A stretch of 64,000 nucleotides of DNA from positions 1-64,000 of the forward strand of contig JAIQCW010000047.1 in assembly GCA_020283715.1 (NCBI GenBank). The letters run 5' to 3'. Each line of letters opens with the position of its first letter. Positions within the stretch are counted from its first letter, which is position 1. The position numbers and the translations under genes were made by a program. A model generated the notes under the pieces. The model saw nothing but the letters and a program-made list of their open reading frames with translations, searched no databases and was not told the DNA's origin. Positions 10,045-62,944 of this stretch are shown piece by piece. This stretch comes from Cytauxzoon felis. Its lineage: Eukaryota > Apicomplexa > Aconoidasida > Piroplasmida > Theileriidae.

Positions 10045-11414
10045 TTATATTTCTGGAGTCTTTCCTTGTAATTCTTGTGACTCGCATAATAATAATAGTG
10101 CTATACCTATAAATTTATATACTATAAAGTATATAAATTCTAATCATACCTATTAATATACCGATTAAATTTCTTCTTGAATAAGAATTCATCCTATTAA
10201 TTAATTTATAATTCATTAAATATTAGAAAAAAAATATACCACATTGGTGCTACATTAAGCCTAGAATATAAATATTCATTAGCTGCTACTCCTATATAAC
10301 ATAAGGACAAGAAATATAATACAGTCCTTGATGCAACATTAGAATTATCTATAAAATTATTAAATTCTAATATTTATTACATACTAGATGCAAATGCAGC
10401 CGCTAATACACCAGATATTGCTGATATCTGACGATAATGAGGTATCCAACTAAATCTTCTCTATATATATATATATAGTTGATAAACTCTATATACATAC
10501 CTGTACTATACCACAACTCAAATAATGCTGTAACCCAGATTGTAACCCAGACTAAACATAATTAAAATTAAAGAACATCAAACATACCGTATACGCTAAA
10601 TATGTACTCAATAAATGTATATCAAATGTAATTATCGATCTTGAATATTGACTATCAACCTCTATTAATATTAATGTAATCGAAGTCTAATTCCATTTTG
10701 ATCTGACATAATACACTGAGGTCCAATCCTCTCCATCTGAGGTTACAGTCCTAGTCTTCTTTCGTCCTGCCGTCAGCTTCTCTATTTACTTCCCCTTCCA
10801 GCTCCCATAGATCGCTTCCAGGTTCCACTTGAGGTCTCCACTCGAGGTTATATTCACTAATTTCACTTGTTCATTTTTACTCCCAAAATTTGAAGGAAAT
10901 CCTGAATTTCTGGGGAAAATAATGAATATTGTGGAATGAATAATGAATGTATTTCTGATGTCAATACTTCATTGAAAAGGAATTTGATGATTGTATTGAG
11001 TTTACTTAATTCTATTGGAATCTTAGTTGAATTCATTGAGATATCCGAACAAACATGAAATTCGTCACTTTAGTCTTATCTCGACGAGATTAGTGATGTA
11101 ACCTCAAGTGGAATACCCGTAGCTGATCTCTGGGAAGCGGAGGGGGAAGTAAATGAAAAGGCCACCACGGCGAGTGGAAGACCTCAGGTGGAGAGCTGTC
11201 TGCAAGACGAAGAGAGGTTGGAGAGGATAGTTGGATTGGTCGTCGGGTGGAAGAATACTATTTTCAACATACCATCATGATAATTAGCGATTGTAGCGGT
11301 TGTGATGAGAGTTGTGATTGTGGTATATGAGGTGATATTGATTAGGGTTGGTATTTTATAAGATTGCCAATATTTATGATAATGTTGATATAATTGTTTA
11401 ATAAAATTGTTCAT
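10045..11414 (-). CDS. TMEM205-like (DUF4149) small membrane protein
   Basis: Seven exons: 11273-11414, 10588-10661, 10501-10551, 10385-10460, 10240-10366, 10150-10193, 10045-10106; frame is continuous and the protein has 191 residues. The middle reads HLLSTYLAYTSGLQSGLQHY and then RRFSWIPHYRQISAISGVLA, resembling the TMEM205 pattern of a helix, a surface with arginine-phenylalanine, and a second helix. Later hydrophobic stretches (VLYFLSLCYIGVAA, GILIGIALLLL) add two or more membrane passes. Family assignment is tentative; multi-pass topology is clear. Its ATG lies inside the last codons of the upstream seryl-tRNA synthetase, a 17-nt same-strand overlap. Intron 1 is 611 nt and carries modules B2, F and B1; the other introns are short. 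Confidence 0.6.
10715..11255. repeat. Modular element cluster with F unit in TMEM205-like intron 1
   Basis: Reverse B2, a diverged F unit (about 10850-11095), then B1 in plus sense, CCACGGCGAGTGG and A. Confidence 0.85.
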
Positions 11415-13863
11415 TTTCTGTAATGATATTAGTATTTGTATATTTTTGTAATGGTTTAGGTATATGTATTTGGATTTTACCGTTATAATTAATATGATGA
11501 TGATTTTCTAATATAGCAGAGATAGTACGTCCAATAGGTAATGCAGTACCATTAATAGCATGTATAATATGATGATTATTAGTAAAAATATTAAGTTTAT
11601 ATGTTTGATAATCTTTAGTATGACTACAACTAGAAATTTCAATAAATTTATTTAATATTGGAAAATAAACTTCAAAATCTATAGTATTAAATGAATGATG
11701 ATTAATATTAGATTTAGATAATTGTATAATTCTAAATGGTAATTCAAGTGAATATAATAAATATTTTATATGTTCAATCATTAAATAATATGAATTATTA
11801 GATAATTTATCAATATTTAAACATAATAATTCTATTTTATCAAATTGTGATAAACGTATTAAACCTCTAGTATCTAAACCATATTTTTGTATTTCATTAC
11901 GAAAACATTGTGTATAACTTGTTAATAATATTGGTAATTCATTTATATTAAATCTTTTATTATTATTTATTGATAATAATGATACTTCAGATGTAGGTAT
12001 TAAATAACCATTTACACCATTTATTAAATGTCTATTATGTAATTTATATAAATTATTTTCAAATCTAGGTAAATGTCCAGTCTTATATAAATATTTCTTA
12101 TTTATAATTACAGGTAATATAATTTCATTATAACCAAATATTTTTGTATTTATATCCAATAAATAATTTATTAATGCTCTACTTAATAATGATATACAAC
12201 CACCATATACACTATATGATGTACCAACTATATCTGAACCTTTATCAACATATATACCACCCATACGATCCAATATATCAAAATGACTCAAACCAGATGA
12301 TGATACAGGACGTATTATGTCATCTGAAACTATATCATTATACTCTATACTCGATGTTACAACCTTGTCTTCGTCTTGCAGACAGCCTTCTCTATTTATT
12401 TCACCCTCCGCTTCCCTGAGATCAGCTACGGGTCCACTCGAGGTAACATCTACTACACCGTCCTTTCCACTCGCCGTGGTGGCTTCTCTATTTACTTCAC
12501 CCTCAAGTTCACGTAGATCACTTTCGGGTCCACTCGAGGTCTTATACTCAATTTTTTCCTCGTCTTGCAGACAGCCTTCTCTATTTAATTCCCCCTCCGC
12601 TTCCCTGAGATCAGCTACGGGTAATCCACTTCCACTCGAGGTTACAACCTTGTTTTCGTCTTGCAGACAGCTTTCTCTATTTACTTCCCCCTTCGCTTCC
12701 CTGAGATCAGCTACGGGTAATCTACTTCCACTTGAGGTCCAATCACTAACCTCTACAATGCCACGATCTCCGGGAGTGGCTTTACTCTTTAGAGATAGGT
12801 AATTAAAAGAGCTGACGGCAGGACCAACCTCAGTTCTTGAAGATCTGATGTCAGGACTAACTTCAGTTCTTGAAGATCTAATGACAGGATTAACTTCAGT
12901 TGTTGAAGATCTAATGACAGGATTAACTTCAGATGATTTTATAAGAGTATTATTGTTTGTATATATCGGTGTATGGGTATAAAGTATAGTATTTGTATTT
13001 GGTATGATGGGTGAAATGATGTTAGGTAATGAATTGATGATATGATTGATATTATGATTAATAATATTAGATTTAAGATTAATATTTTTTAATTTTAATT
13101 TTAATTTTAATGCAATTTCTTTTAATTTTATAATATTTTTATAATTTTTTTTAAAAATTTTTGCGATTTTATATCGTTTATTTATAATTTTTAATTTAAT
13201 TTGTTTTAATTTAATAGATTTATTATATAATTTTCTTAATTTTAATAAATTATCCCAATGATTTTCATTACGTAATAAGAAATTCTTATGAAATACTTCT
13301 GGTATTATTATTAATGATAATAAATTAAATGATTTTGGTATATAGACATTACATTCTTTTATATATTCTACATGATCATTCTTTAAATGTTTATATAATA
13401 ATTGTTCCTTCTCTAAATCATCTTTATTAAAGTGTTCAATTGACTCTAGATATTGACTTGAATTTACATATGGAAGATGTGATGAAGTATCTTTTTCCGA
13501 AGGATAGTTGTGATTTGAAGATGTAATATATTCTTCCAAAGTATAGTTGTTAGCTGATGAAGAAGTATCTTTTTCCGAAGTATAGTTGTTAGTTGATGAT
13601 GAAGTATTTTTTTCATATGAAGTAGAATGATTTGATGATGTAATATCTTCTTCCGATGAACTAGAATGAGTTGATTCAATATCTTTTTCAGAGGTATAGT
13701 TGTTAGTCAATCTTCTACTATAGTAATTTCCAGATGAAGATATAATCGATTGTATAGGATATCCTAATACCTTTGGGGTAATAAAGGAAGTATAATGAGG
13801 GTTTAAATCAAGTGTAAGACTGTCTAGAATGAAATTCCATAATAAAAAGATATAAAAAAGCAT
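11398..13863 (-). CDS. Seryl-tRNA synthetase, probably apicoplast, with large repeat insertion
   Basis: Single frame of 821 residues, nearly twice the usual 430-500. Residues 1-18 (MLFYIFLLWNFILDSLTL) look like a signal peptide followed by a polar stretch, the bipartite leader of apicoplast proteins. Residues 55-125 are Ser/Thr-rich with imperfect repeats of NNYTSEKDTSS. Residues 200-290 are lysine-rich helices of the tRNA-binding arm, ending SLPNIISPIIPN. The class II catalytic domain begins near 525: TSEVSLLSI, motif 2 FRNEIQKYGLDTRGLIR, and motif 3 INGTALPIGRTISAILEN. Between arm and catalytic core, residues about 300-506 are entirely element sequence: one C module and several B modules read in frame. 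The insertion replaces the linker and spares both domains. Identity is secure; the organelle is inferred from the leader. Confidence 0.9.
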   Translation of the reverse strand: MLFYIFLLWNFILDSLTLDLNPHYTSFITPKVLGYPIQSIISSSGNYYSRRLTNNYTSEKDIESTHSSSSEEDITSSNHSTSYEKNTSSSTNNYTSEKDTSSSANNYTLEEYITSSNHNYPSEKDTSSHLPYVNSSQYLESIEHFNKDDLEKEQLLYKHLKNDHVEYIKECNVYIPKSFNLLSLIIIPEVFHKNFLLRNENHWDNLLKLRKLYNKSIKLKQIKLKIINKRYKIAKIFKKNYKNIIKLKEIALKLKLKLKNINLKSNIINHNINHIINSLPNIISPIIPNTNTILYTHTPIYTNNNTLIKSSEVNPVIRSSTTEVNPVIRSSRTEVSPDIRSSRTEVGPAVSSFNYLSLKSKATPGDRGIVEVSDWTSSGSRLPVADLREAKGEVNRESCLQDENKVVTSSGSGLPVADLREAEGELNREGCLQDEEKIEYKTSSGPESDLRELEGEVNREATTASGKDGVVDVTSSGPVADLREAEGEINREGCLQDEDKVVTSSIEYNDIVSDDIIRPVSSSGLSHFDILDRMGGIYVDKGSDIVGTSYSVYGGCISLLSRALINYLLDINTKIFGYNEIILPVIINKKYLYKTGHLPRFENNLYKLHNRHLINGVNGYLIPTSEVSLLSINNNKRFNINELPILLTSYTQCFRNEIQKYGLDTRGLIRLSQFDKIELLCLNIDKLSNNSYYLMIEHIKYLLYSLELPFRIIQLSKSNINHHSFNTIDFEVYFPILNKFIEISSCSHTKDYQTYKLNIFTNNHHIIHAINGTALPIGRTISAILENHHHINYNGKIQIHIPKPLQKYTNTNIITENEQFY
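12345..12965 (-). repeat. Element array inside SerRS coding sequence
   Basis: Four reverse B modules, several D palindromes and one reverse C, all in frame with the minus-strand SerRS gene; followed by about four degenerate 36-nt units (translated SSRTEVSPDIR-type). About 200 codons. Confidence 0.9.
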
Positions 13864-14075: not shown

Positions 14076-16016
14076 ATGTCAAATAATGAATTGGATATAG
14101 ATTTTCTTCTGAAAAATCCATGGTATATATGGAATGATAAAGATAAATGTAACACATTCCTTAGATGTAATCTACATAAAGCACTTATTCATAACATCAG
14201 ATTGAAATTATTTAGGAAATATATACAAATAGAAATCGATAAAAATCGCTCAAGAAAAAGTGCCGCCATTAAAAGAGCATTCAGAGCAGCCAAACATAAT
14301 ACTAGTCTACTCTCAAATACATTACAACAATTAGATCTACAACAATTATGGAATAAACTAGAGGAAGAAAATACACACGATAACATCAATCAACGACTCA
14401 GTATCATACTCGATAATAACAACTTCAATCTACTCAAAAATTTTAATAACAATGGACATGGAGATTCTCCACCTGAAGTTAATCCTGCCGTCAGCTCTTC
14501 ACCACCTGAGGTTAGTCCTGCCGTCAGCTCTTCCAATTACCTCCCCGTAAACGGTAGAGCCACTCCCGGAGATCGTGGCAGTGATGAAGATAGTGATGAT
14601 TGGACCTCAAGTGGAAGTGAAAGTGAAAGTGAAAGTGAAATACCCGAAAACGATCTCAGGGAGTTTGAGGGGGAACTAAATAGAGAAGGCTCTCTGCAAG
14701 AGGAAGACAAGGTTGTAACCTCAGGTGGGAAAACTGATGATAAATTATCGGATGGTTTTTTTGATATGGATGAGATGGAGAGGTTTGCTGATGAGGAATA
14801 TGTTGATGATGGTATAGATTATTTTAGTTCATTGGGTGATGAATCCGATGATTCTATCGCAGCTGCTGATATGAAATATGATGATTTTTTTAAATCTCCT
14901 GGTGATGTTAATAATAATAATGATGATGAAAATTTCAATTTTAATGGGGATATTAATGAATTAGATGAAGATGAACGTGAGATGGAATTATTATTACAGA
15001 AATATGAAGAAAATATATCAGATGACGATGATGATGAATTAAATGATTATAGGGATGATAAAGATGAAGATTTTATGGGGGATATTAACAATTTATTGGG
15101 CGATAATGTCAAATCATCTGGGGTAGATGCAGATGGATTGGATGAGATTAGTAAAATTGAGCAACAGATATCACAACCTAGACATTGGAGTTTAATGGGT
15201 GAAACTACGGCAAAAAATCGTACGAGAAATAGCTTATTAGATTTAGATTTAGAATTACCACATACTTCAACCACTATATACGATGAAGATACCTTTAATG
15301 AAGGTCGTCCTGCAGACAGCTCTTCTAATTCAATCACCGTAAACGGTAAAGCCACTCCCGGAGATCGTGGCGATGGAAGGACTTCAAGTGAAGATAATGT
15401 ATTACCATTGGAACTGATAATAATACAGAGGATAAAATCAGGCGTGTTTGATAATGTTGAACGGAAATTGGATAATGTAGTGGTTAAGAAAAGTGGGGAT
15501 AAAGATGTCGAGATCGATTTCAATAAAAGTACTAAAGGATTAGGTGATATATATGCTGAACGATATAAACAACAATTCACATCTATCGATAAATTAGATA
15601 AACATAAAGAAGAACTAACTGAGTTGTTCTCTAAATTAATGTATAAATTAGATTGCCTATCCAACTCCAACTTCATGCCCAAACGAATCTCAAATGTAGA
15701 AAATGGTGCTGATATCCCCACAATATCAATAACTGACCCCATAAATATAATAACGACATCGAAATCGGGTAAAAAGTCGGGTGGTGTAATGAATGTTGGT
15801 AGGAGCGCGAAGAAGAGGAAATTTGAGAATAAGATTAAAGGGTTAATAAAAAGTGGTAAAATTACAAAAGATGACGCGCAAAGAATAAAGAAATCCATAC
15901 ATGATAGGAATAAATTAAAAATTAAGAAATTAAAACTTAAAAAAGATACAGGACTCGATCATGAAGTCAAACCCAAAGCTAAAATCAATCTCAATGACCT
16001 CTTGTCCAACCAGTAA
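14076..16016 (+). CDS. MPP10: U3 snoRNP protein Mpp10 with two element insertions
   Basis: Single frame of 646 residues. The central region is strongly acidic (DEDEREMELLLQKYEE, ISDDDDDELNDY), followed by the diagnostic HWSLMGETTAKNRTRNSLL and LELPHTSTT, then IQRIKSGVFDNVERK and GLGDIYAERYKQQF, and a lysine-rich C-terminus (KIKKLKLKK). This is the Mpp10 order: acidic blocks, then the conserved C-terminal half. Mpp10 is part of the U3 small-subunit processome acting in 18S rRNA maturation in the nucleolus. Two element insertions are translated in frame: residues about 127-220 (C and B3 modules) and 408-440 (C only). Both fall in acidic or linker regions, leaving conserved blocks intact. Confidence 0.9.
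   Translation: MSNNELDIDFLLKNPWYIWNDKDKCNTFLRCNLHKALIHNIRLKLFRKYIQIEIDKNRSRKSAAIKRAFRAAKHNTSLLSNTLQQLDLQQLWNKLEEENTHDNINQRLSIILDNNNFNLLKNFNNNGHGDSPPEVNPAVSSSPPEVSPAVSSSNYLPVNGRATPGDRGSDEDSDDWTSSGSESESESEIPENDLREFEGELNREGSLQEEDKVVTSGGKTDDKLSDGFFDMDEMERFADEEYVDDGIDYFSSLGDESDDSIAAADMKYDDFFKSPGDVNNNNDDENFNFNGDINELDEDEREMELLLQKYEENISDDDDDELNDYRDDKDEDFMGDINNLLGDNVKSSGVDADGLDEISKIEQQISQPRHWSLMGETTAKNRTRNSLLDLDLELPHTSTTIYDEDTFNEGRPADSSSNSITVNGKATPGDRGDGRTSSEDNVLPLELIIIQRIKSGVFDNVERKLDNVVVKKSGDKDVEIDFNKSTKGLGDIYAERYKQQFTSIDKLDKHKEELTELFSKLMYKLDCLSNSNFMPKRISNVENGADIPTISITDPINIITTSKSGKKSGGVMNVGRSAKKRKFENKIKGLIKSGKITKDDAQRIKKSIHDRNKLKIKKLKLKKDTGLDHEVKPKAKINLNDLLSNQ
14457..14735 (+). repeat. Element insertion 1 inside Mpp10 coding sequence
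   Basis: Two A-D units, C with CCGTAAACGG hairpin, A, a short GAAAGT tandem, B3, a GTC-type D and A, all read in the Mpp10 frame. Confidence 0.9.
15300..15395 (+). repeat. Element insertion 2 inside Mpp10 coding sequence
   Basis: GTCCTGCAGAC palindrome and a C module with CCGTAAACGG hairpin, then a degenerate A. Same frame and direction as insertion 1. Confidence 0.88.
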
Positions 16017-17790: not shown

Positions 17791-19660
17791 ATGTCATCCG
17801 TAAGGTCACGTTCTGATGCACATACGTATTGTCAACAAATACCAAATCCAGCAGCAAATTCATATACTGGACAAGTATTGGACGGTCTATTTCATGGTAG
17901 CGGTACATTTTATTACAATGATTATGAGCGTTATGAGGGTGATTTCGTGTTAGGTAAACGTGAAGGATTTGGGAAATTCTTTTATTCTGACGGGTCAATT
18001 TATGAGGGTGAATGGTTGAATGATAAAATCAATGGCAATGGCACAGCATATTTTGCCAGTGGTAATGTATATGAAGGTTAGTATTGTATGTTTGATTATA
18101 CATTAACATCACAGGTAATTGGGAGAATGGTAGAATCAATGGGTTTGGAAGTTTGAAATATTCAAATGGTGATGTATACGAGGGTGAATGGGTAGATGGT
18201 GCTATGCATGGGACTGGAACATATAAATATGCCGAGGGTGATGTATATGTAGGTGAATGGAGATTAGACAAAAGGCATGGTAAAGGTACAGTCACATATG
18301 TAGATAAGACCGGCACTATATCCGAAATGTACGAAGGAGAATGGATCGATAATGTCATCAGTGGTAAAGGAACATACAAATACTCAGATGGCGGTGTATA
18401 TGACGGTATGTTTACGAACAACCACAATAATGAGATTTGTTCATCGAGTGTCACCAGCACCTGAGGTCCAATCAGTATCATCTACTCTTCCACTCAAGGT
18501 CTTCCACTCGCCGTGGCGGCCTTCCTATTTACTTCCCCCTCCGCTTCCCTGAGATCAGCTACGGGTTCCACTTGAGGTCCAATCAGTACATTCAAGGTCT
18601 GTTCTTCCGGGTAGACATACCGAGGATGATCTACGGGAATCCGAGGGGAGGTAAATAAAAGAGCTGACGGCAGGATGAAGAGAGGCGGATCTGTCTTGGT
18701 GAATATATTGATATAATGAATATATAGGTGATTGGTTTAATGGTAAGATGCATGGTACGGGTAAATATACATATCCTAATGGTGATAAATATGAGGGTGA
18801 ATGGGTAGAGGATCATAAAGAAGGGTATGTTTGAATGAAGATATTTTTAAAATATTTATAATAATTTAACTTATTTATATAGGTTTGGTGTATTAGTACG
18901 TTCAAATGGTACAAAATATGAAGGATATTGGCTTAATGATAAAGAACATGGTACAGGTACTCTAGTCTATGCCGAAAATGATCGATATAATGGTGAATGG
19001 AATATGGGTAAAAAAAATGGTACCGGTGAAATCATATATATCAATGGTGATCGATTCAAAGGTAAATTTATAAACACTACCGTAATCTCATCCACTTCAA
19101 CCGCCAACTCTCTTCCTCTCACAGTTCCACCTGAGGTTACATCCTACTCTTCTTCCACTCGCCGTGGAGGCTTCATCTAATTACCTCCCCGTAAACGGTA
19201 TAGCCACTCCCGGAGATCGTGGCGTGAGAGGTTAGTGATAAGACCTCAAGTGGAATACCTGTAAGCGATCTACGGGAGCTGGAAGGGGAAGTAAATAGAA
19301 GAGCTGTCTGCAAGACGAAGAGAGGCGGATATATCTTGATGAATATATTGATATAATGATAATATAGGTACATGGACTGATGATCATGCGAATGGTTATG
19401 GTGTATATGAGTATTCGAATGGTAATCGTTATGAGGGTGAATGGTTGATGGATAAGAGGCATGGTGTTGGTATGTTTTATTGTAAATTAGATGGATCAAC
19501 ATATAATGGTGGTTTTGTTGATGGTAAAAAAGAGGGTTATGGTACACTTGCATTAGGATGTGGTAATGTTATACATGGTATATGGCATAGAGGTACATTA
19601 ACATCAATTGATAATTTTGAAGTCTCACCAAACTCAGCATGGAGTAATCCAGATTTGTAA
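17791..19660 (+). CDS. MORN1: MORN-repeat protein, MORN1-like
   Basis: Five exons: 17791-18076, 18115-18405, 18728-18824, 18883-19061 and 19368-19660, giving 381 residues. After a short leader ([16 protein letters not shown]) nearly the whole protein is MORN repeats of about 23 residues with the pattern YEGEW-x-x-G-x-x-x-G-x-G. I count 14-15, for example [28 protein letters not shown] and [14 protein letters not shown]. Length and repeat number match MORN1 of other apicomplexans (about 360 residues, 14 repeats), a scaffold of the spindle pole region and basal complex during daughter budding. Each intron interrupts the first codon or codons of a MORN unit. Introns 1 and 3 are 38 and 58 nt; introns 2 and 4 are 322 and 306 nt and carry element clusters. 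Confidence 0.85.
18455..18690 (-). repeat. Modular element cluster (B1, E) in MORN-gene intron 2
   Basis: A, CCACTCGCCGTGG, reverse B1, a single E unit, a diverged B-like unit and CTGACGGCAG. Shares a 50-nt run with the cluster in the CLK intron (55430-55480). Confidence 0.8.
19122..19325 (+). repeat. Canonical full-length element in MORN-gene intron 4
   Basis: A, CCACTCGCCGTGG, C with CCGTAAACGG, spacer, A, B2, GTCTGCAAGAC. A useful reference for the order of modules, about 200 nt. Confidence 0.88.
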
Positions 19661-20290: not shown

Positions 20291-23017
20291 CTATGATGCT
20301 TCAGGATAGAAGAACGATTCTGACTCGAATGGCTGTTGTATATGTAAGGGCGGTGTGATTAAAAGAGGGGTCCATGGTGAATGAATATGATATGTATATA
20401 GAGGTTGTGCATATCCACCTACATTTAAGACTGAATCAAAATATCCATCACAAAATAAAGTTATTAATAGACGTAGTGATAACATTAATATTATAGAAAA
20501 TTGAATGATGGTCCCTATATATCCTTCATAACTCTGCAAAGCTACTCCACCAAATGCCGTGGACTCCATCAATTTCTGGCTGGTGTTGAGAGTAACACTA
20601 AATAATCCTACAAGGAAAGGATTGTTCTTTACACCTCTACCTATAAATCCATCAGGCGAACGAATTGTACTAGTTAAAGCACATAAACAGATTATATAAG
20701 GCATAGCAAGTACCCATACACAATTATAAAACCATCTATTGTTGTTCCATTTACCACTTGGACCCATAAAATCGATTTCAATAAGGTCTAAGTCTAGGAT
20801 AGCTAGTCCAAGATTGGGAATCGTGGATATAATTGCAATACATAAATCGATTTCCTTAGCTCTCTCAGGATCAATTAAAGAATATGGGGTACTTATGGGG
20901 TATGCCATACAAATTATACCAAGTGGAAATGTTAGCATTAATATGGGAGACCAGTGATAGAGGTTATCAAAGTAAATTAATTCTTTTAAAGATCCTTGTC
21001 TAATATACTTTGGAAGTACCTCAGCAAGACCCGTGACACTACCATTTGGGTCCCCATTAACTTTATTAGTTTTTTCCCATGGATCACCTCTACGATACCA
21101 TGTATGACTACCAGAGTTAACGCATATTAATAATGGCCTATTTATGATAGGACTGCCCTGGGAATCCTTCTCATAATATACCCATAGTGTCTTATTACTA
21201 GTAATATTTACACCATTAGGTAAACCTTTAAGTCCTAAACCCAAATGTTTAAATTTTACGTCATTAAGTTGATCTGCATGACTATGCTCATATGCCACAT
21301 ATCCTGAAGGTACTTTAGTAGTTACCCTAGCGACAGTAATTTGTTTATTGTTCGTTACATATGAGATAGAAGTATTACTCTCATTCTTAGGAACATAGTC
21401 CAATCTGACATTAATTGATGGCTTGGGATAACCTGTATCATTATTAGTAAGTGCTACTTTAATTTTATCAAGTTTTCCTTTAAGTGCCACTGGATTTGTC
21501 TGTGGTTCTATATCTTTGTAATAATTTGAATCTTCTTTTAACCATGTATAATTAGGATAGGTTCCCGTACGTTTATACCATATATTATCTCCAGGGTTAG
21601 AAGATTTCTGGCCGTTCTTAGATAAACATATCAACAGAGGCTTCTTTATATCAGTTTCGTAATATACGAATACACCTCCACTAGCTTGATGTGTAAATCC
21701 ACCGTTTAAATCCTTAATGTTCGATATTACCTGATTATTTACTGTAATAAGGTTGATTACTTTTTGACTAACATCTCCATCAAAATGATGCCTATAACCT
21801 TTAAAACCACTATTAGTAGATAAACCTTGAATATTTATTTTATGTTCAGTTCCAGTACCTGGGCGTGCTGTGTATTGAGACCCGTTTTCAAGCTTAACTT
21901 CGTATTTAACTTTGACTTCATCAAGCCTAGTTTTAATATCAGAACAGACACTCTCATCATCTGGATCCTTATATTTAAGTACAGAAGTTATATCCGTCCA
22001 CTGATTTCCTCTTTTATAATATTTAGTAGAAGAACCCTTGACACAGACAATTAATGGGAATTCACGCTTTTCATCATCTTTACTACATTTATAATACACA
22101 TAAACCGCTGTAACATTTTCTGTAAAATGTATTCCATTTAATTGAACATCTTTGTGTATAACAGAGCCCAAGTTAAATGGTTTATGTCCGTCACGTTTAT
22201 GATCGAATCTATCATAGTCAGACGGTACTCCAGTACTTCCTTTAGCAACAGTAATTTTCACTGATCCATAATAGCCATTTCCTAAATTTGTGTCAGTTTG
22301 ACTCAAGTCAATTATAACATCTGTACCAATGCATGGACAAAAGGTACCCCTAGAAACGTACCCCTTACTATCATTTTCAATTTCATTGTATTGATCAAGT
22401 ATCCATAATGTACGAGCAACTGCAAGAAATAGCATTGCAAAGGAATAATGTAAGATGACTAAATTATAATCATACTCCCCCCAATGATATAAATTATAGA
22501 AATGTTTATATGTCTTATGTAAAAAGAAGGAAACAAGTGAGGATACAGAGATTCCTGCAGCATATATTATGGAATTGGTATTAACTGCGAAGGCGAAACA
22601 AGAAGAGAAGCCATTAGAGAGTGTCAATAAAATAATACTCAAATATACATATCGAAAGCGTCGACAATCTTCACAAGATATAAACGCTATATAAGATATA
22701 ACAGAACTAATAAGTGTTACCCACATGGAAATACATGAGACTTTCCTTTTGAAGCTCATGTTATGAATACTTTTACTATCGAATGATACATCAATAAATA
22801 CTGTTAAGGCAAAGGCAAGAAAAGCTGAAATCAAATTAGATAAATCCATAGGATAATGGAATTTATATACAAACAATGATGCTGCATATGGAGGTAAATG
22901 GAACCTATTAATCGCATAACTACAACAGGTGGTTGCTATATAATAAGGACATAATGTAACAAATCCATTTAAGAACATACATATTATACCCAACAAACCA
23001 TCCATACTATATTTCAT
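20291..23017 (-). CDS. Multi-pass membrane protein with repeated ectodomain (Tpr-related?)
   Basis: Long frame of up to 908 residues starting MKYSMDGLLGIICMFLNGF. Residues 1-215 contain about six membrane segments. Residues about 225-690 are polar and hold three copies of a module of roughly 150 residues with the motif VYYE, then PLLICLS, then WYKR (for example KPLLICLSKNG with IWYKRT; RPLLICVNSG with TWYRRG). Residues 690-845 contain about five more membrane segments. The six-plus-five arrangement around a large loop is like a transporter fold with an ectodomain placed in the central loop. I think it is one of the Theileria Tpr or FAINT-bearing families, but cannot prove it. The true end may be at a splice donor near 20415, since the last 50 residues of the frame are poor. 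A broken relative lies at 38052-39913. No element is inside the coding region. Confidence 0.65.
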   Translation of the reverse strand: MKYSMDGLLGIICMFLNGFVTLCPYYIATTCCSYAINRFHLPPYAASLFVYKFHYPMDLSNLISAFLAFALTVFIDVSFDSKSIHNMSFKRKVSCISMWVTLISSVISYIAFISCEDCRRFRYVYLSIILLTLSNGFSSCFAFAVNTNSIIYAAGISVSSLVSFFLHKTYKHFYNLYHWGEYDYNLVILHYSFAMLFLAVARTLWILDQYNEIENDSKGYVSRGTFCPCIGTDVIIDLSQTDTNLGNGYYGSVKITVAKGSTGVPSDYDRFDHKRDGHKPFNLGSVIHKDVQLNGIHFTENVTAVYVYYKCSKDDEKREFPLIVCVKGSSTKYYKRGNQWTDITSVLKYKDPDDESVCSDIKTRLDEVKVKYEVKLENGSQYTARPGTGTEHKINIQGLSTNSGFKGYRHHFDGDVSQKVINLITVNNQVISNIKDLNGGFTHQASGGVFVYYETDIKKPLLICLSKNGQKSSNPGDNIWYKRTGTYPNYTWLKEDSNYYKDIEPQTNPVALKGKLDKIKVALTNNDTGYPKPSINVRLDYVPKNESNTSISYVTNNKQITVARVTTKVPSGYVAYEHSHADQLNDVKFKHLGLGLKGLPNGVNITSNKTLWVYYEKDSQGSPIINRPLLICVNSGSHTWYRRGDPWEKTNKVNGDPNGSVTGLAEVLPKYIRQGSLKELIYFDNLYHWSPILMLTFPLGIICMAYPISTPYSLIDPERAKEIDLCIAIISTIPNLGLAILDLDLIEIDFMGPSGKWNNNRWFYNCVWVLAMPYIICLCALTSTIRSPDGFIGRGVKNNPFLVGLFSVTLNTSQKLMESTAFGGVALQSYEGYIGTIIQFSIILMLSLRLLITLFCDGYFDSVLNVGGYAQPLYTYHIHSPWTPLLITPPLHIQQPFESESFFYPEAS

Positions 23018-24956: not shown

Positions 24957-27900
24957 TTATTTGATATGTTGTACTATTGTGAATTGGTAATTAGGTGAGT
25001 GTTGATTATAAGTATCATGTATAATAATTTTATTGATAATTGGCCAAAATAATTTGGCGTATTTATTATTACTAAAGGCACATTTTAAAATTTCATTTAA
25101 ATGTATTTTCATTTCATTTAAACATTCATCAAATATTGTCATTTTAATTAAACATGTAAATATCATTTCAGTTGTACTCATAAATTCTATATTAAAAATA
25201 TCATCCAACTTTTTATCTACATCTATATTATCATCTATCATATCATCAGATCCTATCGAAGATACATTTGTAATTTCCTTGTCTTGTATACAATTATCAC
25301 AATTTGCCTTTACAGTCGCCGTTCCACCTGAGGTTACAACCTTGTTCCCACTAGGCGTGGAGCCTCTTCCTTTTATTTCCCCTTCCAGCTCCCGTAGATC
25401 GCTTCCAGGTATTCCACTTCCACTTGAGGTTGCATCCAACACATCCTTAGCACCATCTTCCATCATTCCCATGATGGATGATCCATCAATACCTTCACCT
25501 TCACCACGATCTCCGGGAGTGGTTCTACCGTTTACGGGGAGGTAATTGGAAGAGCTGTCTGCAAGACGAAGAGAGTCGGATTGGACCTCGTGTGTAGAGC
25601 TGACGGCAGGACGACCTCGGGTGGAGTTAACTTTGGGAATAGTTGGTGGACGACCACGTGTTGAGCGTCTTTTAGATTCAGGTTCTGACCGACTTCGTTT
25701 GGTTGTAATCTTCGATGTAGTGTTGTTTACGAGATGATTTATATTGGCATTGGATGGGTTACAAATATTATTATGTCGTGTTGTTGATAATAAAAAGTTG
25801 ATGGGCAGAAAATTTGCATGGGGATCATTGGAATTTGTTTTGTTTTTACTTTTGGAATTTGAGGGCGGTCTACCTCTAGTACCAGGTTTTCTTTTATATG
25901 TACGTTTATTTTCATTTGTACTTTTTTTGTTTACAGTACGTCTATTAGATTTTTTACCCTTAGCTCTACCTCTGCCTCTTTTAACAACTTCTACATGAGG
26001 GGTATTTATAGTACCATTACATAATATTTCATTCTTGAATCTTTTATCCATCACACCCAAACTCCTTGTTATACGATCTTCCAATTCCCATAAATCTCTA
26101 TCAGATGTTATATCTGATGTCGTCTTGCAGACAGCTTCTCTTTTTAGTTTTCCCTCCGCTTCCCTGAGATCAGCTGCGGGTTCTCCACTTGAGGTCTCCA
26201 CCTGAGGTCCAATCACTAACCTCTCACCGCCACGATCTCCGGGAGTGGCTCTACCCTTTAGGGATAGGTAATTGAAAGAGGCTCCACGCCGAGTGGGATC
26301 AGAGGCTGTAACCTCAAGTGGAGAAGAGCTGACGGCAGGACGAAGAGAGTTGGATTGGACCTCGTGTGCAGAGCCTACGTCAGGATGAAGGGAGGATGAA
26401 GTAACATGAGAACTATCAGTAGGATTTACATCTGTTTGGTAGTAAGTAGATGTCCCATAATTTGATTCCTCTTTTACATCAACAACTGTCCCTACAACAT
26501 CATGTGGTAAATTAATATTATAGTGTTTTTTATCCCCATTAATACCCACATCATTTTGTGAGTTATTAATACCAAAGATGATTTTATAGAAGGATTGTAG
26601 ATAACTAATGGATTGTTTGAGTGTGGGTGTATTATTGACATCGACGACTTCATTGATTTTATGGTAGTTATTATTATTATTATTTTGTAAATCAAATGAG
26701 AATAATGATACTGGATTGATTAATGGGTTATATTCTCTATTGAAATGATCTAGTAATGTATTGTTATAAATAAAATTCTTTTTAAATGGATTATATAAAT
26801 CAGTTGAATCTATAGATAAACATGATGGATAATATTTATCTAATAATATATTTTTATTAACAACAATCCCCACATCATCATATAATAAATAATCCCCATT
26901 TGTTATATTAATCCCCATTTTTATTAAAATTTTACAGATATTATAAATAATTACATTAACAGATTTATTATTATCATAATAATTAATAAATAATAAAATA
27001 ATTTCTAATATTTTTCTTAATAGATTATCATTTATATTAAATTCAGATAATAATATATATAATAACATATAAACATGACGTATTATATTTGTGGGGATAT
27101 TTACCCCTTTATTTATATAACAATTATATATAGACACTAATAAATTATATATTATAGGCTCTAATTTATACCATAATAATAATGATATCAACTTTTGATA
27201 CAAAATATTTATAAATATACATGATATATCCTCAAAATAATAACCCAATGTATCATATATATCAATACATAATATATTCGAACTTAAATCCTTAATCGTC
27301 ATTATACACGTAGATATCATATCAAATTCCATACTTATATCATATTTAGAATCAAAACTATATATACCACAATCAGCCACATGATCCACACATACACTCA
27401 ATAAATGAACAGGTAAAAATAATGAACTGTCATATAAAGGATCATACATATCATCCAATATATCCATCCTCAATCCCACATTGTCATACCCATCCATATC
27501 AACTGATATATTGTCGAGCAATTTTGTATTATGGGGATTATTATCTAAATCATGGGGTATGTTCTTTTTGTGAGGTTTTTTATCACTATATTGCCCCATT
27601 ACCCTATCTTCTCCACTCGAGGTCCTGTCGATTTCCTTCCTACTATCTTCAACTTTCGTCGTCTTGCAGACAGCTCTTCTATTTATTTCCCTCTCAAGTT
27701 CCCGTAGATCACTTTCGGGTATTCCACTCAAGGTTACATCCTCAACACTACCTCCAACATCGCCACGATCTCTGGGAGTGGCTTTACCGTTTACGGATAG
27801 GTAATTGGAAGAGCTGTCTGCAAGACGAAGAGAGTCGGATTGGACCTCAGGTGGAGAGCTGTCTGCAGGACCAACGGTGGAAGCGAGTGGAAGAGGTGAA

Positions 27901-30035
27901 GACAAGGATTGGATCTCGGGTGGAGGAGAGTTGTTGATATTGAAAGTATATGGTGAGTTGTATGATGGATCATATGTAGAGGTAGAATCGATTGAGGTTG
28001 TACGATTGATGGTGTATTTTTTTGATTTTTGACATGTGCATTGTTTATATATGAGTTTATGTATCCTTTTAAGTAATGCGGCTGTAATATTTTGTATAGC
28101 TTTGATGGTATAAATAGTTTCAATAGATGTATTGATACCATTTAATGAATGATTATCATGTTCATCATCATAATAACAATAACAATCATCTTCATCATCA
28201 TTATATAAATGTATAGAATTACATTCTTTAATTGATTTTGTATTTGTTAAATTACCTTGTACACCTTCATATATTGTACGATCTATATCACCTGTTGTTG
28301 GCCCTATAAATGATAAATCATTACAAGTTGAATTACGTAATCTTGCTTTTATACTACCTCTAGTATATATCTTATCCATTAATAATTCATCATTTAAATC
28401 AATACCTTTATTATTTCCATCCCTTTTTATACCACTACTATTTATCAAATCATCCACTATCCTCGATTGCCTAATACTTTTATTCACCCTACCATATAAT
28501 GATCTACATATATAACCATTATCACCATCATCATATACAACATCACCATTATAATAATCACCATACATTACACCTGAAGACTTGATATTACCTGTAGGTA
28601 TTCCACCTGATGTTACATTCCTGCCGTTGCCACTCGCCATGGTGGCCTCTCTATTTAGTTGTCCCTCCGCTTCCCGTAGATCAGCTACGGGTTCCACTCG
28701 AGGTCCGGTACTATTATTCATTCCACTAGCCGTGGTGGCCTTCCTATTTAGTTGTCCCTCCGCTTCCCGTAGATCAGCTTCGGGTTCCACTTGAGGTCCA
28801 TTAACTATATCACGTTCTTCCGGATTAATACTCTTTGTTCCTCCGGGTAGATTTCCTGTTCTTAGGGGTTGAACATCGCCACGATCTCTGGGAGTGGCTT
28901 TACTCTTTAGAGATAGGTAATTGGAAGAGCTGACGGCAGGACTAACCTCAGGTGGAACAGAGGTGGATTGGACTTCATGTGTTGGGTGTATATAATCTTT
29001 GTTAGAGTTGGTATCGTGTGGATTATGTTCGAATTTGGATTTATCATAGTTTGTATGTTTGAGTAGATTATGTTTATTATTTTGATTGAGATCGAGTATG
29101 GGTTTATTATATTGATTGAGATATGTGGTAAGAATTTGGCAGCATGAGTATAATAATTTGAGTATTTTATGATGATTGATATCTAGATGTAATTGTTGTG
29201 TAAGTTCGATAGCAATGATTGAGATATGTTTTTGTATACCATAGATATTGGGTATATTATTAATAGTGAGTGTATTAAGAATAACATTTAGACATGATTC
29301 AACATCTTGACGTAATATTAATAATTTAATAATTTCAAATAATATACATTTACATAATTTTTGTACAGTAATTGTATCAATAGATTTGAAAATATTATCA
29401 TCTAAATGATGTAATTGATGTTGATTAATAATATGATTATATTGAAATTTATTAAGATAAGATGGTAATTCAGCAGAAATTCTTGCTGCATATTCTATTT
29501 TTGATTTAATATTATATGGTAATATATTATTATTTATTGGTAATATATTATTATTAAATATAAATTTAACTTTTGGTGCTATAGTTTTTATATGTTGTTT
29601 AGCCATCCATATTAAATTTTCTTCATTTGATACTGATAAATATCTTGGTGATTTACCAATTATATCTTTTTTATCATTTATAAATGTTTCAGATATTATT
29701 TTTCTTTTTGGTATTCTACCTGATCTTGTTACATGACCATATTTTGATGGATCTGGATATATAAAATTATTAAAACAATCCCAAAAATATTGTGATGCTT
29801 TATGTGCTTCTTCTAATGTTATATATTCATTACTATTTATTACACCTATTTCTATACATATATCACGCCAACATGTCATTATTACTGCTGATGTTAATGC
29901 ACCTCTACTACGTGCTGATTGATAAAATTTATATAAATCAATCGTCTTACCAAATATTAATTTTTTACGTAATAATGATAAACGCTCTGCACCATGAAAA
30001 TCCCTCATACATCTATAGAAATCCGATTCTGTCAT
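24957..30035 (-). CDS. ARID-domain and AT-hook chromatin protein with four element insertions
   Basis: Uninterrupted frame of 1692 residues. Residues 1-100 match an ARID/BRIGHT DNA-binding domain: FYRCMRDFHGAERL, GKTIDLYKFYQSARSRGAL and CWRDICIEIGV. Residues 165-300 and 880-1080 are helical, Ile/Asn-rich regions. A basic part follows, with AT-hook-like motifs near 1350 (KRGRGRAKGKKSNRR), 1388 (GTRGRPPS) and 1450 (STRGRPPT). The C-terminal 90 residues are helical again. ARID plus AT-hooks suggests a nuclear DNA-binding or remodelling-complex subunit; partners are unknown. Element sequence is translated in frame at about residues 350-478, 702-810, 1213-1305 and 1462-1572, always as KATPGDRG and DLREAEG-type peptides. 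One insertion also includes module G, translated [20 protein letters not shown]. The host blocks look intact on both sides of each insertion. Confidence 0.8.
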   Translation of the reverse strand: MTESDFYRCMRDFHGAERLSLLRKKLIFGKTIDLYKFYQSARSRGALTSAVIMTCWRDICIEIGVINSNEYITLEEAHKASQYFWDCFNNFIYPDPSKYGHVTRSGRIPKRKIISETFINDKKDIIGKSPRYLSVSNEENLIWMAKQHIKTIAPKVKFIFNNNILPINNNILPYNIKSKIEYAARISAELPSYLNKFQYNHIINQHQLHHLDDNIFKSIDTITVQKLCKCILFEIIKLLILRQDVESCLNVILNTLTINNIPNIYGIQKHISIIAIELTQQLHLDINHHKILKLLYSCCQILTTYLNQYNKPILDLNQNNKHNLLKHTNYDKSKFEHNPHDTNSNKDYIHPTHEVQSTSVPPEVSPAVSSSNYLSLKSKATPRDRGDVQPLRTGNLPGGTKSINPEERDIVNGPQVEPEADLREAEGQLNRKATTASGMNNSTGPRVEPVADLREAEGQLNREATMASGNGRNVTSGGIPTGNIKSSGVMYGDYYNGDVVYDDGDNGYICRSLYGRVNKSIRQSRIVDDLINSSGIKRDGNNKGIDLNDELLMDKIYTRGSIKARLRNSTCNDLSFIGPTTGDIDRTIYEGVQGNLTNTKSIKECNSIHLYNDDEDDCYCYYDDEHDNHSLNGINTSIETIYTIKAIQNITAALLKRIHKLIYKQCTCQKSKKYTINRTTSIDSTSTYDPSYNSPYTFNINNSPPPEIQSLSSPLPLASTVGPADSSPPEVQSDSLRLADSSSNYLSVNGKATPRDRGDVGGSVEDVTLSGIPESDLRELEREINRRAVCKTTKVEDSRKEIDRTSSGEDRVMGQYSDKKPHKKNIPHDLDNNPHNTKLLDNISVDMDGYDNVGLRMDILDDMYDPLYDSSLFLPVHLLSVCVDHVADCGIYSFDSKYDISMEFDMISTCIMTIKDLSSNILCIDIYDTLGYYFEDISCIFINILYQKLISLLLWYKLEPIIYNLLVSIYNCYINKGVNIPTNIIRHVYMLLYILLSEFNINDNLLRKILEIILLFINYYDNNKSVNVIIYNICKILIKMGINITNGDYLLYDDVGIVVNKNILLDKYYPSCLSIDSTDLYNPFKKNFIYNNTLLDHFNREYNPLINPVSLFSFDLQNNNNNNYHKINEVVDVNNTPTLKQSISYLQSFYKIIFGINNSQNDVGINGDKKHYNINLPHDVVGTVVDVKEESNYGTSTYYQTDVNPTDSSHVTSSSLHPDVGSAHEVQSNSLRPAVSSSPLEVTASDPTRRGASFNYLSLKGRATPGDRGGERLVIGPQVETSSGEPAADLREAEGKLKREAVCKTTSDITSDRDLWELEDRITRSLGVMDKRFKNEILCNGTINTPHVEVVKRGRGRAKGKKSNRRTVNKKSTNENKRTYKRKPGTRGRPPSNSKSKNKTNSNDPHANFLPINFLLSTTRHNNICNPSNANINHLVNNTTSKITTKRSRSEPESKRRSTRGRPPTIPKVNSTRGRPAVSSTHEVQSDSLRLADSSSNYLPVNGRTTPGDRGEGEGIDGSSIMGMMEDGAKDVLDATSSGSGIPGSDLRELEGEIKGRGSTPSGNKVVTSGGTATVKANCDNCIQDKEITNVSSIGSDDMIDDNIDVDKKLDDIFNIEFMSTTEMIFTCLIKMTIFDECLNEMKIHLNEILKCAFSNNKYAKLFWPIINKIIIHDTYNQHSPNYQFTIVQHIK
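25318..25650 (-). repeat. Element insertion inside ARID-gene coding sequence (residues about 1462-1572)
   Basis: A, CCACTAGGCGTGG, B2, G unit, C with CCGTTTACGG, two D palindromes; all in frame with the gene. Confidence 0.9.
26120..26395 (-). repeat. Element insertion inside ARID-gene coding sequence (residues about 1213-1305)
   Basis: GTCTTGCAGAC, B1, A-A, C with the CCCTTTAGGG hairpin variant, CCACGCCGAGTGG, CTGACGGCAG; in frame. Confidence 0.9.
27605..27930 (-). repeat. Element insertion inside ARID-gene coding sequence (residues about 702-810)
   Basis: A, GTCTTGCAGAC, B3-like module, A, C with the CCGTTTACGG hairpin, two GTC-type palindromes; in frame. Confidence 0.9.
28600..28985 (-). 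repeat. Element insertion inside ARID-gene coding sequence (residues about 350-478)
   Basis: Two B1 modules in tandem with CCACTCGCCATGG and CCACTAGCCGTGG palindromes, three E units, C, CTGACGGCAG, A; in frame. Confidence 0.9.
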
Positions 30036-39913: not shown

Positions 39914-39916
39914 CAA

Positions 39917-39998
39917 TGTACCCGCAGCTGATCTCAGGGAAGCGGAGGGGGAACTAATTAAAGGAGCTGACGGCAGGACTAACCTCAGGTGTAGTGTA
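39917..39998 (+). repeat. Element piece (B1, D, A) at the 5' end of the broken membrane gene
   Basis: B1, CTGACGGCAG and A. It lies exactly where homology to the intact gene's ectodomain begins. Confidence 0.85.
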
Positions 39999-59367: not shown

Positions 59368-59586
59368 TTGAATGAAACAAAGTTTAAGGATTTAATTTCA
59401 CTCTAATTTATACCCCGATTTCCTCCAAGGTTGTACAATTATTAGGTGCAGTAGGCATTATATAAATTATAAATAGTTTTTATACAGTTGATTTTCTGGA
59501 AAATTTCAACGATTCTGACAACATATAAATAAATTAGTTGAAAATTTTATTATATTATACGAGATTATTCAAAATTTATATTCCTC

Positions 59587-62500
59587 TTAATTTATACCCA
59601 ATTCCGATCGCATCTGAAATTATAAAAGAAAATTCCTTGCATAACTATACCTTTAATATTTGAATTTTACCAGATTTTATTCTCTTCTTTCCCCTAGCTC
59701 TCTTATACTCTTCCTCCTCATTCTCTGATCCCTCACTCAATTCAATCTCTGTGTCTCTTGCTATTCTCTCCATCCATCCATCTACCCTTTTCCTCTTTAA
59801 CATCTGATGAAGTTGTGAAGTCGGTAATTTAATTCTCTAGAGAGAAATTTCCATCGAGGGAGAATTTTCAACCAAGGAGGAATTTTCCACAGAAGAAGAA
59901 TTTTCCATAGAGGAAGAAATTTCCATAGAGGGAGAATATTCCATAGAGGAAGAAATTTCCGTCCTCTATAATAAAACAATCATACCTTATATTCTTCTTG
60001 TTCGATATTATTAGCAAAGTTGATTAGAGTCTTATACTCTATAATATAAATAAAATTAAAACTTCAACAAACGTTGATATTTTTTGTTTGGAATACAATC
60101 GAGTATAACTTCAACATTTGAAATGTTTATATTAATTCCCGAGAATAATTCTTTCCATTCATTCATCTCACTACAAGAGCATATACAAATAGATTCTCCT
60201 AAATGGATATATAAATTATTATGAGTATATATAAAAAAAACCTTCAGTATAAAATCTAGCGGTTCTACCAGATCTATGAATAAATATTGTAGAATTTCTA
60301 GGTGGATTAAAATGTATAATACAATTAACATCAGGTAAATCTATTCCTCTAGATGCAACATCAGTAGAAATAATAATAGATTTCTTATACTTTATAAAAC
60401 TATATATTATATTTCATAATAATCAAATAACATACTCCTCTATACGCTTCAATCGCTGCTTCTGCTTAAGATTAGAATGAAAACCAGTTATATAATCAAC
60501 TATACTCTCCTTACTCATTGTCACAGATTCAGATTTCAACATCGATCTCTCATGCTTATCCTTCCATAATATCAACCTATAAATATAATAATAATAATAA
60601 ATATCTCAATTTCAGTGCCATTCCACCTGAGGTTACAACCACCTCTCTTTCCACTAGGCGTGGAGCCTCTTCTATTTACCTATCTCTAAAGAGTAAAGCC
60701 ACTCCCAGAGATCGTGGCGAGGTTGAGGTTCATTTAATATTGTGGGGAAATATAGGGGTAAAAAACACTATAATTTTATAATACCCCATGATTCAGATAA
60801 AAAACACCACAATACCCCATTTGAGGTCCAATCTAATTCTTCTTCCATTTCCACCTGAGGTCCATCTTTTCCATTGCATGGTGACCTTCCAATTACTTCC
60901 CCCTCCGCTTCCCTGAGATCAGCTGCGGGTAGTCCACCTGAGGTTACATCCAACACATCCTTAGCACCATCTTCCATCATTCCCATGATGGATGATCCAT
61001 CACAACCTTCACCACGATCTCTGGGAGTGGCTGTACTCTTTAGAGATAACTAAATAGAAGAGCTGACGGCAGGATGGACCTCAGGTGGGATCTTATGGTG
61101 TTGGTTTTTGATGATATTATTTATCGAGTGTATTTGTGTATAACTAACGAGAGTAATGATTCGAGTCTATAAACGTAGGTGATTGTATTGACGAAGATGA
61201 TACAGTGTGTATTATTTGAATTTGATAGATGATAGATTAGAAATGCGATTAATTTTAATTCCTAATGATTATATAATATATTATAGAATTAATAATTACT
61301 TTATCATTATCGAATGCTTTAATTATTTTAAATGTTAATGTTTTAGGTATTGTAATAAAATTATTATTATTATTAAGATTATTGAATGGTATTGATATAT
61401 TTTTATCATTTGTTGATATACAAACTAATGGATTATTAAGTTTCATTAATTTAAATAATGATTTCAATTGATTTTTAACCTAAAATTATAATAAAATAAA
61501 ATTAAATAAAAATTATTACATTAATTATAGTAGCAGAACATATAAAATATTGTGTATCAGATATTATTAATTTTTTTATTATATAATTTAATTCTTTATA
61601 TGATTTATTTTCTATAAATTTATCAGCTTCATCTAATATTAAATATTTTAATTTAAATTTTATATTTATATTATTATTATTATTAATTATTATATCCCAT
61701 AATCTACCTGGTGTACATATAATTATATTTGGATTTTTTTTAATAATTTTTCTTGTTTTTGTATAGATATACCACCTATTATATTAATAACATTAATATC
61801 TATACCATATATAATATTATTAAATACATTTTTTACTTGTATTGCTAATTCTCTTGTTGGTAATATTATTAATGATTCTATTATATTATTATTTTTATTA
61901 TTATATAATGATATCACTATTGGTAATACAAATGATAATGTTTTACCTGAACCCTAAATAAAAAATTTATTTTTTCTTCCTTCATTCAATTATTAAACAT
62001 ACAGTTTCAGCACATGCAATTATATTCTTATTATGAATTAATACATGTTCAAGTGTTAATGATTGTATATTAGTAGGATGAAACATTCCATTCATATAAA
62101 GATTCCTTAATATTATATAAGGTATCTGATATTCATCCCCAAGTAACTTTTTCCATGAAGAAGTAGATGATATAACAATAGATGGTGATGGTTCAGAATC
62201 CAAACATATACTTTTTTTATGTAAATCATCATGAAATACATTATCTAAATCAGTATGAGATACACTTCCAATTGAGGTTATAACCATGTTTTCGTCCTGC
62301 AGACAGCCTTCCACCCGAGGTCCAGTCCTGCCGTCAGCTTCTCTATTTACTTCCCCCTTCGCTTCCCTGAGATCAGCTACGGGTAATCCACTTCCACTCG
62401 AGGTACAATCACTACCTCCACATTTTAGTACAACCTTCTCTTCGTCTTGCAGACAGCTTCCTTTATTTACTTCCCCTTCCAGCTCCCGTAGATCGCTTCC

Positions 62501-62944
62501 AGGTTCCACTTGAGGTCCAGTACTAACTCTACTTGGATCACTACCTTCAACATCGCCACGATCTCCGGGAGTGGCATTACCGTTTACGGGGAGGTAATTA
62601 AAAGAGCTGACGGCAGGACCTCGAGTGGGACGCCTAGTGGAAGACGAGTTGGATTGGACCTCAAGTGGAGAAGAGTTCTCTTCAGGAGTACCTACGGTGG
62701 AGGTAACCTCGGGTGGAACATCGAGTGTGTCTAAATCACTTCTAATGGGTGTTTTATTTTCTTCTACTTTTTCTTCAGCTTCTTCTAGATTGATATTGTT
62801 TGGATTATCCTTTATCAATTCATACGAGTTGGGGTCAAGGACATCTATAGACATTAATCCTTCACCGACGAGATCGAGAGGAAATTCTACACTTTTCCAC
62901 TTAAGACGTGGCTTAGTAGTAGTAGAAGATTTTTTACCCGCCAT
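59587..62944 (-). CDS. DEAD-box RNA helicase, Mak5/DDX24-like, with insertion and a frameshift
   Basis: Ten exons: 62003-62944, 61520-61953, 61300-61479, 61149-61261, 60436-60576, 60242-60399, 60073-60198, 59986-60038, 59651-59836 and 59587-59613, about 786 residues if one base is allowed for. Motifs: Q-region FHPTNIQSLTL, I AETGSGKTLSF (across intron 1), Ia LPTRELAIQV, GG, Ib CTPGRLWDI, II LDEADKFIE, III CSAT, V STDVASRGIDLPDVN and VI FIHRSGRTARF. The C-terminus KLPTSQLHQMLKRKRVDGWM recalls Mak5, a 60S-assembly helicase. Residues about 73-223 are in-frame element sequence, before the helicase core. In exon 2 an A8 run (minus strand, about 61735-61742) breaks the frame by one base between motifs Ia and Ib; an indel error or slippage is likely. 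The exon 7/8 boundary (intron 60039-60072) is less certain. Confidence 0.82.
59837..59985 (-). repeat. Minisatellite in intron 8 of the Mak5-like gene
   Basis: About six imperfect units of 18-24 nt; on the minus strand, variants of TCTTCCTCTATGGAAATT. The array could be read as repeated SMEISS-type peptides, but it ends in CTCTAG just before AGAATTAAATTACC, where the conserved C-terminal reading resumes, so I place it in an intron of 149 nt. Confidence 0.6.
60620..61090. repeat. Composite element array in Mak5-like intron 4
   Basis: Forward C, H unit (60738-60825), A, CCATTGCATGG, reverse B1, G unit (60948-61002), reverse C, D, A. Confidence 0.85.
62275..62725 (-). repeat. Element insertion inside Mak5-like coding sequence (residues about 73-223)
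   Basis: Two D palindromes, B1, D, B2, A, C with the CCGTTTACGG hairpin, D and A units, all in frame with the gene. Confidence 0.9.

Follow-up and report, generated by a model that had tools for sequence, protein, structure and literature searches.

Rickettsia palindromic elements (RPEs), of which further kinds are described from Wolbachia and Methanocaldococcus, are found as in-frame insertions in assorted genes, typically in segments of the protein that are unstructured (PMC2996958). PARCELs are coding sequences with dyad symmetry that are mobile within genomes, some of them eukaryotic, and they consist of amphipathic units of 25 residues, arranged in tandem, in genes whose function is unknown (PMC2996958). 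Palindromic sequence inside protein genes is also described in Nematomorpha, where the genes are mitochondrial and the inverted repeats long and perfect (PMC6649704). Among alveolates, the introner elements of Amoebophrya are short repeats with inverted motifs that are spreading in genes (PMC7789003). For Theileria, a close relative of the parasite considered here, transposable elements had not been found according to a statement of 2008 (PMC2612703).

We describe here an interspersed repeat of the cat-parasitic piroplasm Cytauxzoon felis, copies of which were noticed in a window of 64,000 nucleotides (the whole stretch of DNA that was analysed, positions 1 to 64,000 of contig JAIQCW010000047.1). 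Translated in-frame repeats are known in some bacteria; in the nuclear DNA of a parasite like this one, a eukaryote to which an apicoplast is attributed, they look new, and no published description of the element was found in the open-licence literature that we searched. The initial annotation of the window had likened the behaviour of the repeat to that of RPEs. What stands of this likeness is the in-frame insertion into unrelated genes, here in a nuclear genome (21 of 21 coding clusters in our sample); a strong hairpin was not shown, as in single-strand folding just one of 11 element copies beats 95% of its own shuffles, a stability that is not exceptional, although the small H1 stem covaries. 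RPEs occur outside genes as well, and this likeness too extends to C. felis, where neither flank is coding in 101 of 152 clusters. The C. felis element is unlike RPEs in belonging to an apicomplexan nuclear genome, in its swappable small modules, in its abundance (about 13% of the sample) and in its unexceptional fold. Since the two were likened by behaviour and a stable stem-loop was not shown, we do not claim membership among RPEs. PARCELs differ as well, the C. felis element being made of interspersed and unlike C and B modules that are mostly noncoding, as judged from the arrangement of its modules. As for introners, those of Amoebophrya are introns, whereas two C. felis copies stay in the cDNA of the antigen gene cf76 (PMC7789003, PMC3748084). 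On the evidence presented below, the repeat is probably an RPE-like modular interspersed element that is filtered by selection after insertion.

Composition, abundance and mobility of the element

The assembly examined has 181 contigs and 8.62 Mb, and is not identical to the published C. felis assembly, for which 361 contigs and 9.1 Mb are given. For detailed counting we used a non-random sample of 264 kb, made of the window and of twenty 10-kb stretches from contigs C1-C4, C8 and C28. The exact core of the C module, CCACGATCTCYGGGAGTGG, has 2,489 copies in the genome, 1,278 forward and 1,211 reverse, against 0 copies of a control string. In the sample a C and/or B module is present in 171 of 217 repeat clusters, and these 171 span 34,240 bp, that is 13.0% or about one-eighth of the sequence, a figure that leaves out the 46 clusters without C or B and three modules lying outside clusters. 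Altogether the sample holds 113 C modules (46 on the plus and 67 on the minus strand) and 176 B modules (73 plus, 103 minus).

Read by eye in its sense direction, the element starts with P (CCACCTGAGGT), T (one of several small hairpin-like tails), CTCTTCTAATTACC, H1 and the C core, after which come a linker, P', B, AAATAGAAGAG, T' and P'. The subfamilies of C are named by their peptides, the LPVNG, LSLKS and LSLKG types, and the peptide encoded, approximately ..NYL(PVNG/SLKS).., is hydrophilic. The most frequent form of a cluster (82 of 171) has C and then B in the same direction. In a second form, B-core-B, a core of about 230 bp lies between two inverted B modules; a genome search with this core gave 1,896 candidates, of which 40 were scored, and the 39 copies other than the query were 80-90% identical. 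An element of this form, with P and T modules outside the inverted B pair, lies at 2840..3290 of the window (no strand assigned), and its core is 97% identical to that of an inverted copy at 5717-5962, which suggests recent movement. The stem of H1 is paired in 335 of 344 cells, and 51 of the cells are double changes, as against a shuffled mean of 16.6; none of 1,000 shuffles reaches 51, and slid controls fail. This covariation counts few events many times over, and H2 was uninformative.

Like MITEs, the element is short and multicopy, and its B-core-B form has inverted ends, seen by eye as a mirrored B-T-P at 14 of 14 loci, with some imperfect P modules and unlike sequence beyond. MITEs differ from it in that neither a target-site duplication nor a MULE transposase was detected in C. 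felis, so the inverted ends fit a MITE and the absent duplication does not. The search for duplications covered 94 elements and lengths of 2 to 8 nt, and true pairs of ends resembled swapped pairs; the ends were set at the outermost P, an assumption of the test, and the true ends could lie elsewhere. A second test for duplications had a similar outcome. When flanks were joined and searched for as empty sites, five matches, to the flanks of two clusters, spanned the junction; four of these had 71-75% identity, the fifth was a tandem self-match, and none was a clean empty site. MULE was the only transposase domain searched for and none was found in the genome, which has one reverse transcriptase locus that may be telomerase.

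Another small repeat, whose units resemble GTTCTTCCGGG and encode, for example, the peptide INPEER, is present at 9540-9660 and recurs next to elements. An ORF with a MACPF domain (6072-6956) has an element cluster on each side, at about 5926-6027 and 6961-7165. Two ORFs of a repeated protein family, with PLLICL-type motifs recognised by eye, were noted at 20291-23029 and 38664-39953, the second of which starts inside an antisense B module. An XPD-like helicase gene (Pfam DEAD_2, HBB, Helicase_C_2) has an apparent intron, by eye, at 34951-36497, and inside it, at 35103-36152, there is a Cys-rich, variant-antigen-like ORF of 349 aa with element modules on either side.

Copies in the window and in the antigen gene cf76

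The initial annotation had reported eight insertions in four genes of the window. All eight were found again, all sense within open ORFs, and seven of them also pass a coding test in which only the flanks are scored. In the ORF of a class II tRNA synthetase, called SerRS by the initial annotation (Pfam gives the class II core alone), a cluster of four B and one C modules occupies 12368..12825 on the minus strand; both flanks are coding, and the cluster is open, sense and keeps the frame. The same ORF has, upstream of C, four 33-nt tandem units resembling a degenerate T-P module (12807-12938). Mpp10 carries two copies on the plus strand, one of C and B at 14482..14728 and one of C only at 15305..15375, each sense and in frame by the flank test, and both fall in length-variable stretches of an alignment of nine piroplasm orthologues. 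Four insertions share an ARID-like ORF of 1,725 aa, whose ARID match of 23.4 bits is slightly below the Pfam cut-off of 24.1. Three of these, at 25316..25626, 26119..26364 and 28612..28977 (C and two B), all on the minus strand, are supported by the flank test and by the open ORF; the fourth, at 27610..27871 on the same strand, is the exception to the flank test, as it lies in the open ORF with one flank passing and the other below threshold. The eighth insertion (62291..62718, minus strand; flank test and open ORF) is in the N-terminal exon of a DEAD-box gene, Mak5-like in the initial annotation, of which the helicase motifs were recognised by eye in the following ORFs and the N-terminal exon has no Pfam match.

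Copies in apparent introns, all delimited by eye, were used for comparison. The copy in the exon of the DEAD-box gene is sense, and the two copies of a single apparent intron of that gene are opposite in direction, antisense at 60639..60830 (plus strand) and sense at 60869..61077 (minus strand). A MORN-like gene on the plus strand, itself identified by eye, has an antisense copy at 18470..18690 (minus strand) and, in another apparent intron, a sense copy at 19130..19325 (plus strand).

A search of about 5.8 billion proteins with the element-bearing part of the SerRS ORF gave a single match among 5,415 candidates, the C. felis surface antigen cf76, and a search with the corresponding part of the ARID-like ORF gave none; both were confined to proteins whose length is 0.55-1.75 times that of the query. 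In the assembly cf76 lies at C114:6540-8708 (93-95% identity, in two pieces), and its 723 aa agree with the published length of the protein in the sequenced isolate (PMC3748084). It carries two element copies, in both of which C is read in phase 1 and B in phase 0. According to the published account, a single-exon ORF of 2,172 bp was cloned and sequenced after amplification from cDNA, the RNA having been treated with DNase, and two of the published primers map within copy 1 (PMC3748084). An isolate with a cf76 of 706 aa differs from the 723-aa form by in-frame gains and losses around copy 1. Recombinant cf76, a vaccine candidate antigen, is recognised by sera of survivors, and copy 2 lies in the C-terminal fragment, the most seroreactive region (PMC3748084). 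The one repeat mentioned in what that article says of cf76 is a tandem repeat of 30 bp (PMC3748084). The element peptide itself is found in many long ORFs.

Orientation and reading frame of coding copies

Counting insertions within ORFs is biased, because any ORF that received stops with an insertion would be broken. We therefore scored the 90-nt flanks of each cluster for coding potential and ignored the insert. The coding model was built from 58 long ORFs of the 264-kb sample, with elements masked in host ORFs; its best frame was wrong for 1.8% of coding windows, and scores exceeded 0 in 20.6% and 5 in 7.1% of noncoding windows. After removal of five clusters at stretch ends, 152 of 157 merged clusters could be scored. 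Both flanks are coding on the same strand in 21, and all 21 are sense, keep the frame and have no stop, C being read in phase 1 and B in phase 0. One flank is coding in 28 clusters, the flanks are coding on opposite strands in two, and where neither is coding 47 clusters point to the minus strand, 40 to the plus strand and 14 are mixed, which bears out the earlier statement that outside coding sequence the modules point both ways.

To see how this result depends on the settings, flank length and threshold were varied in 12 combinations, over which the number of sense, same-frame coding clusters ranged from 9 to 24. With 120-nt flanks the single exception at each threshold was one mixed/shifted cluster. 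With 90-nt flanks the exceptions were one mixed/shifted, one antisense/shifted and one antisense/same-frame cluster at threshold 0, one mixed/shifted at 1.5, and zero at 3 and 5. With 60-nt flanks they were three sense/shifted, four antisense/shifted and two mixed at threshold 0, three sense/shifted and one antisense/shifted at 1.5, one of each of these two kinds at 3, and none at 5.

That coding copies would always be in one direction and one frame, as first proposed, is thus true of C and B (21 of 21 clusters) and fails for the small P and T modules. Exact P modules of the 21 coding clusters occur sense in phase 0 (21) and phase 2 (10), and antisense in phase 0 (9) and phase 1 (2); T modules occur in both directions and several phases, by exact counts since T3 and T4 otherwise overlap. 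The rule thus applies to the long modules, those in which the other sense frames are closed. Among noncoding copies the coding sense frame is open in 57 of 65 C (69-nt slice) and 97 of 113 B (61-nt slice), the other sense frames in 2 and 12 of the C and in 1 and 3 of the B copies. The spacing from C to B modulo 3 is the same in 18 of 18 coding elements and is distributed 25/17/12 in noncoding ones (n=54). These counts uphold the earlier claim of one open sense frame for each module, with the frames of C and B agreeing, as far as the sense direction goes; antisense frames are partly open, the B frame a1 in 69 of 113 noncoding copies and two frames of LPVNG-type C each stop-free in most of the 150 best-matching copies.

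Genome-wide, we searched with translated queries from single window copies in six frames and counted matches in frames of at least 250 aa, among the best 150 copies by similarity out of 465 to 2,915 candidates per query. LPVNG-type C was found sense in such frames in 92 of the best 150, LSLKS-type C in 32 and B in 29; antisense, each of the two open frames of LPVNG-type C gave 1 of the best 150 and B gave 2. The count of orientation and frame that the initial annotation had proposed therefore comes, besides the 21 of 21 sense clusters of the sample, to four antisense cases in a total of 450 C or B copies scored, all at ORF ends and, by eye, adjoining likely splice sites. For the sense cases of this count, calibration was provided by the 264-kb sample, in which 109 C and 169 B modules were set against ORFs of at least 250 aa. 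There, C was sense in 23 interior positions and one edge position and antisense in one edge and one interior position, the latter probably in an ORF opposite Mpp10; B was sense in 32 cases, all interior, and antisense in four, all at edges. Two antisense copies were looked at by eye: one (L025, G000:C146:18300-20300) lies at the 3' end of an RNA-binding-protein-like ORF and the other (L027, G000:C33:44300-45500) at the 3' end of a MORN-like ORF, both near a likely donor site.

Probable selection after insertion, and other readings

That only one frame is open does not suffice as the full reason for these observations, since the bias in orientation exceeds what stop codons predict. For this prediction we used 114 whole clusters, noncoding or with one flank coding and of a single orientation (mixed ones left out): in 36 of them the sense frame used for coding is open, the remaining two sense frames are open in 1 and 2 respectively, and open antisense frames add up to 31. 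Stops alone predict a sense to antisense ratio of 39:31 (56% sense), or of 13:5 (72%) for clusters with both C and B, and the observed ratios are 21:0 (P = 5e-6) and 18:0 (P = 0.003). Acceptor-like polypyrimidine-AG strings are present antisense in 115 of 135 clusters and sense in 32 (mixed-orientation clusters left out), and donor-like strings show no difference between directions (82 and 81 of the 135). The open antisense frames of B are more hydrophobic (hydropathy +0.19 to +0.32) than sense B (-0.85). In C the sense frame (-0.73) is less hydrophilic than the antisense frame that is most often open (-1.18), so that hydropathy fails to explain the orientation of C.

In the reading that we favour, a partly palindromic modular repeat would have spread through the nuclear genome, in spacers, introns and exons and in both orientations, with movement that may be recent. 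The copies surviving in exons would be those that keep the frame and have C and B in the stop-free, hydrophilic sense frame, and each would become an additional segment of the protein in a tolerant linker. The rule of orientation and frame would then arise through selection after insertion, antisense copies being lost also for reasons other than stops, possibly their acceptor-like splice signals and, for B, a hydrophobic peptide. The use of P and T both ways and in several phases within coding sequence is what such a filter would allow, and the position of the Mpp10 inserts, where orthologues vary, also speaks for this reading.

The density of elements in coding sequence is 0.263 (0.157-0.418) of that in noncoding sequence. 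Random insertion would give 0.056 if one-sixth of placements and one-third of lengths survive, 0.0175 if present-day openness is added, and 0.167 if all donor lengths are divisible by three. Coding copies are thus more frequent than plain filtering would permit. The excess implies coding-competent donors, or longer persistence in coding sequence, or movement from coding to coding sequence. It could mean that coding copies descend mainly from coding copies, through gene conversion, recombination or copying coupled to the transcript strand, orientation and frame being inherited and not filtered. With this agrees the over-representation of LPVNG-type C in coding sequence, that is a distinct mix of subfamilies both in the long frames given above (92/150 against 32/150 for LSLKS, from best-scoring and hence non-random lists) and in the sample (LPVNG and LSLKG versus LSLKS, p = 2e-4). 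Of the three copies nearest to each coding copy, 37% are themselves coding, compared with 15% in permutations within subfamilies (P = 0.04), but under free permutation the signal has P = 0.11. Moreover, the same subfamilies are found outside coding sequence too, longer persistence would also raise the density, and P and T take both directions and several frames in coding copies. We consider descent of this kind unlikely. Its fullest version, a mobile lineage of the LPVNG type that is adapted to coding sequence, has evolved long modules with one harmless soluble frame in one direction, spreads or persists preferentially in exons and brings a shared, possibly immunogenic peptide, is likewise unlikely and is put forward tentatively; if true, it would seed that peptide into hundreds of nuclear-encoded proteins. 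By extrapolation there would be about 5,000 clusters genome-wide, and about 690 coding ones if 21 per 264 kb is typical.

Much less probable is a functional role of the peptide, as a domain or tag (a binding or decoy epitope, say) that has spread through its usefulness. The presence of the peptide in many long ORFs and of copy 2 in the most seroreactive fragment of cf76 would suit such a role (PMC3748084), but neither flank is coding in 101 of 152 clusters, a tRNA synthetase, Mpp10 and a DEAD-box protein are among the hosts in the window, and a codon-position signal is absent. Within subfamilies, the codon-position divergence of coding and noncoding copies does not differ (p = 0.63), and there is thus no sign of selection on the peptide. 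An apparent selection on the peptide of C (0.142/0.078/0.170 in coding against 0.099/0.105/0.090 in noncoding copies) was due to the mixing of subfamilies and was gone within them at the same p = 0.63.

The initial annotation had itself raised splicing as an objection, which is answered for cf76, and not for the four genes of the window, by the uninterrupted cDNA ORF with both copies (PMC3748084). That the copies are introns or introner-like elements removed by splicing is hardly credible, since, although invasive introns bearing hairpins are known in the alveolate Amoebophrya (PMC7789003) and the element has donor-like and acceptor-like strings, the cf76 clone reads through both copies (PMC3748084) and introns need neither openness nor a single frame, yet 21 of 21 coding clusters are open, preserve the frame and use one frame.

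With filtering after insertion as the preferred explanation, an interspersed repeat amounting to about 13% of a piroplasm sample is part of housekeeping ORFs and of a vaccine candidate. Since the seroreactive fragment of cf76 shares its peptide with many ORFs, antibodies against it may lack specificity for cf76. The C. felis element offers a eukaryotic test case for the evolution of proteins through the insertion of palindromic repeats.
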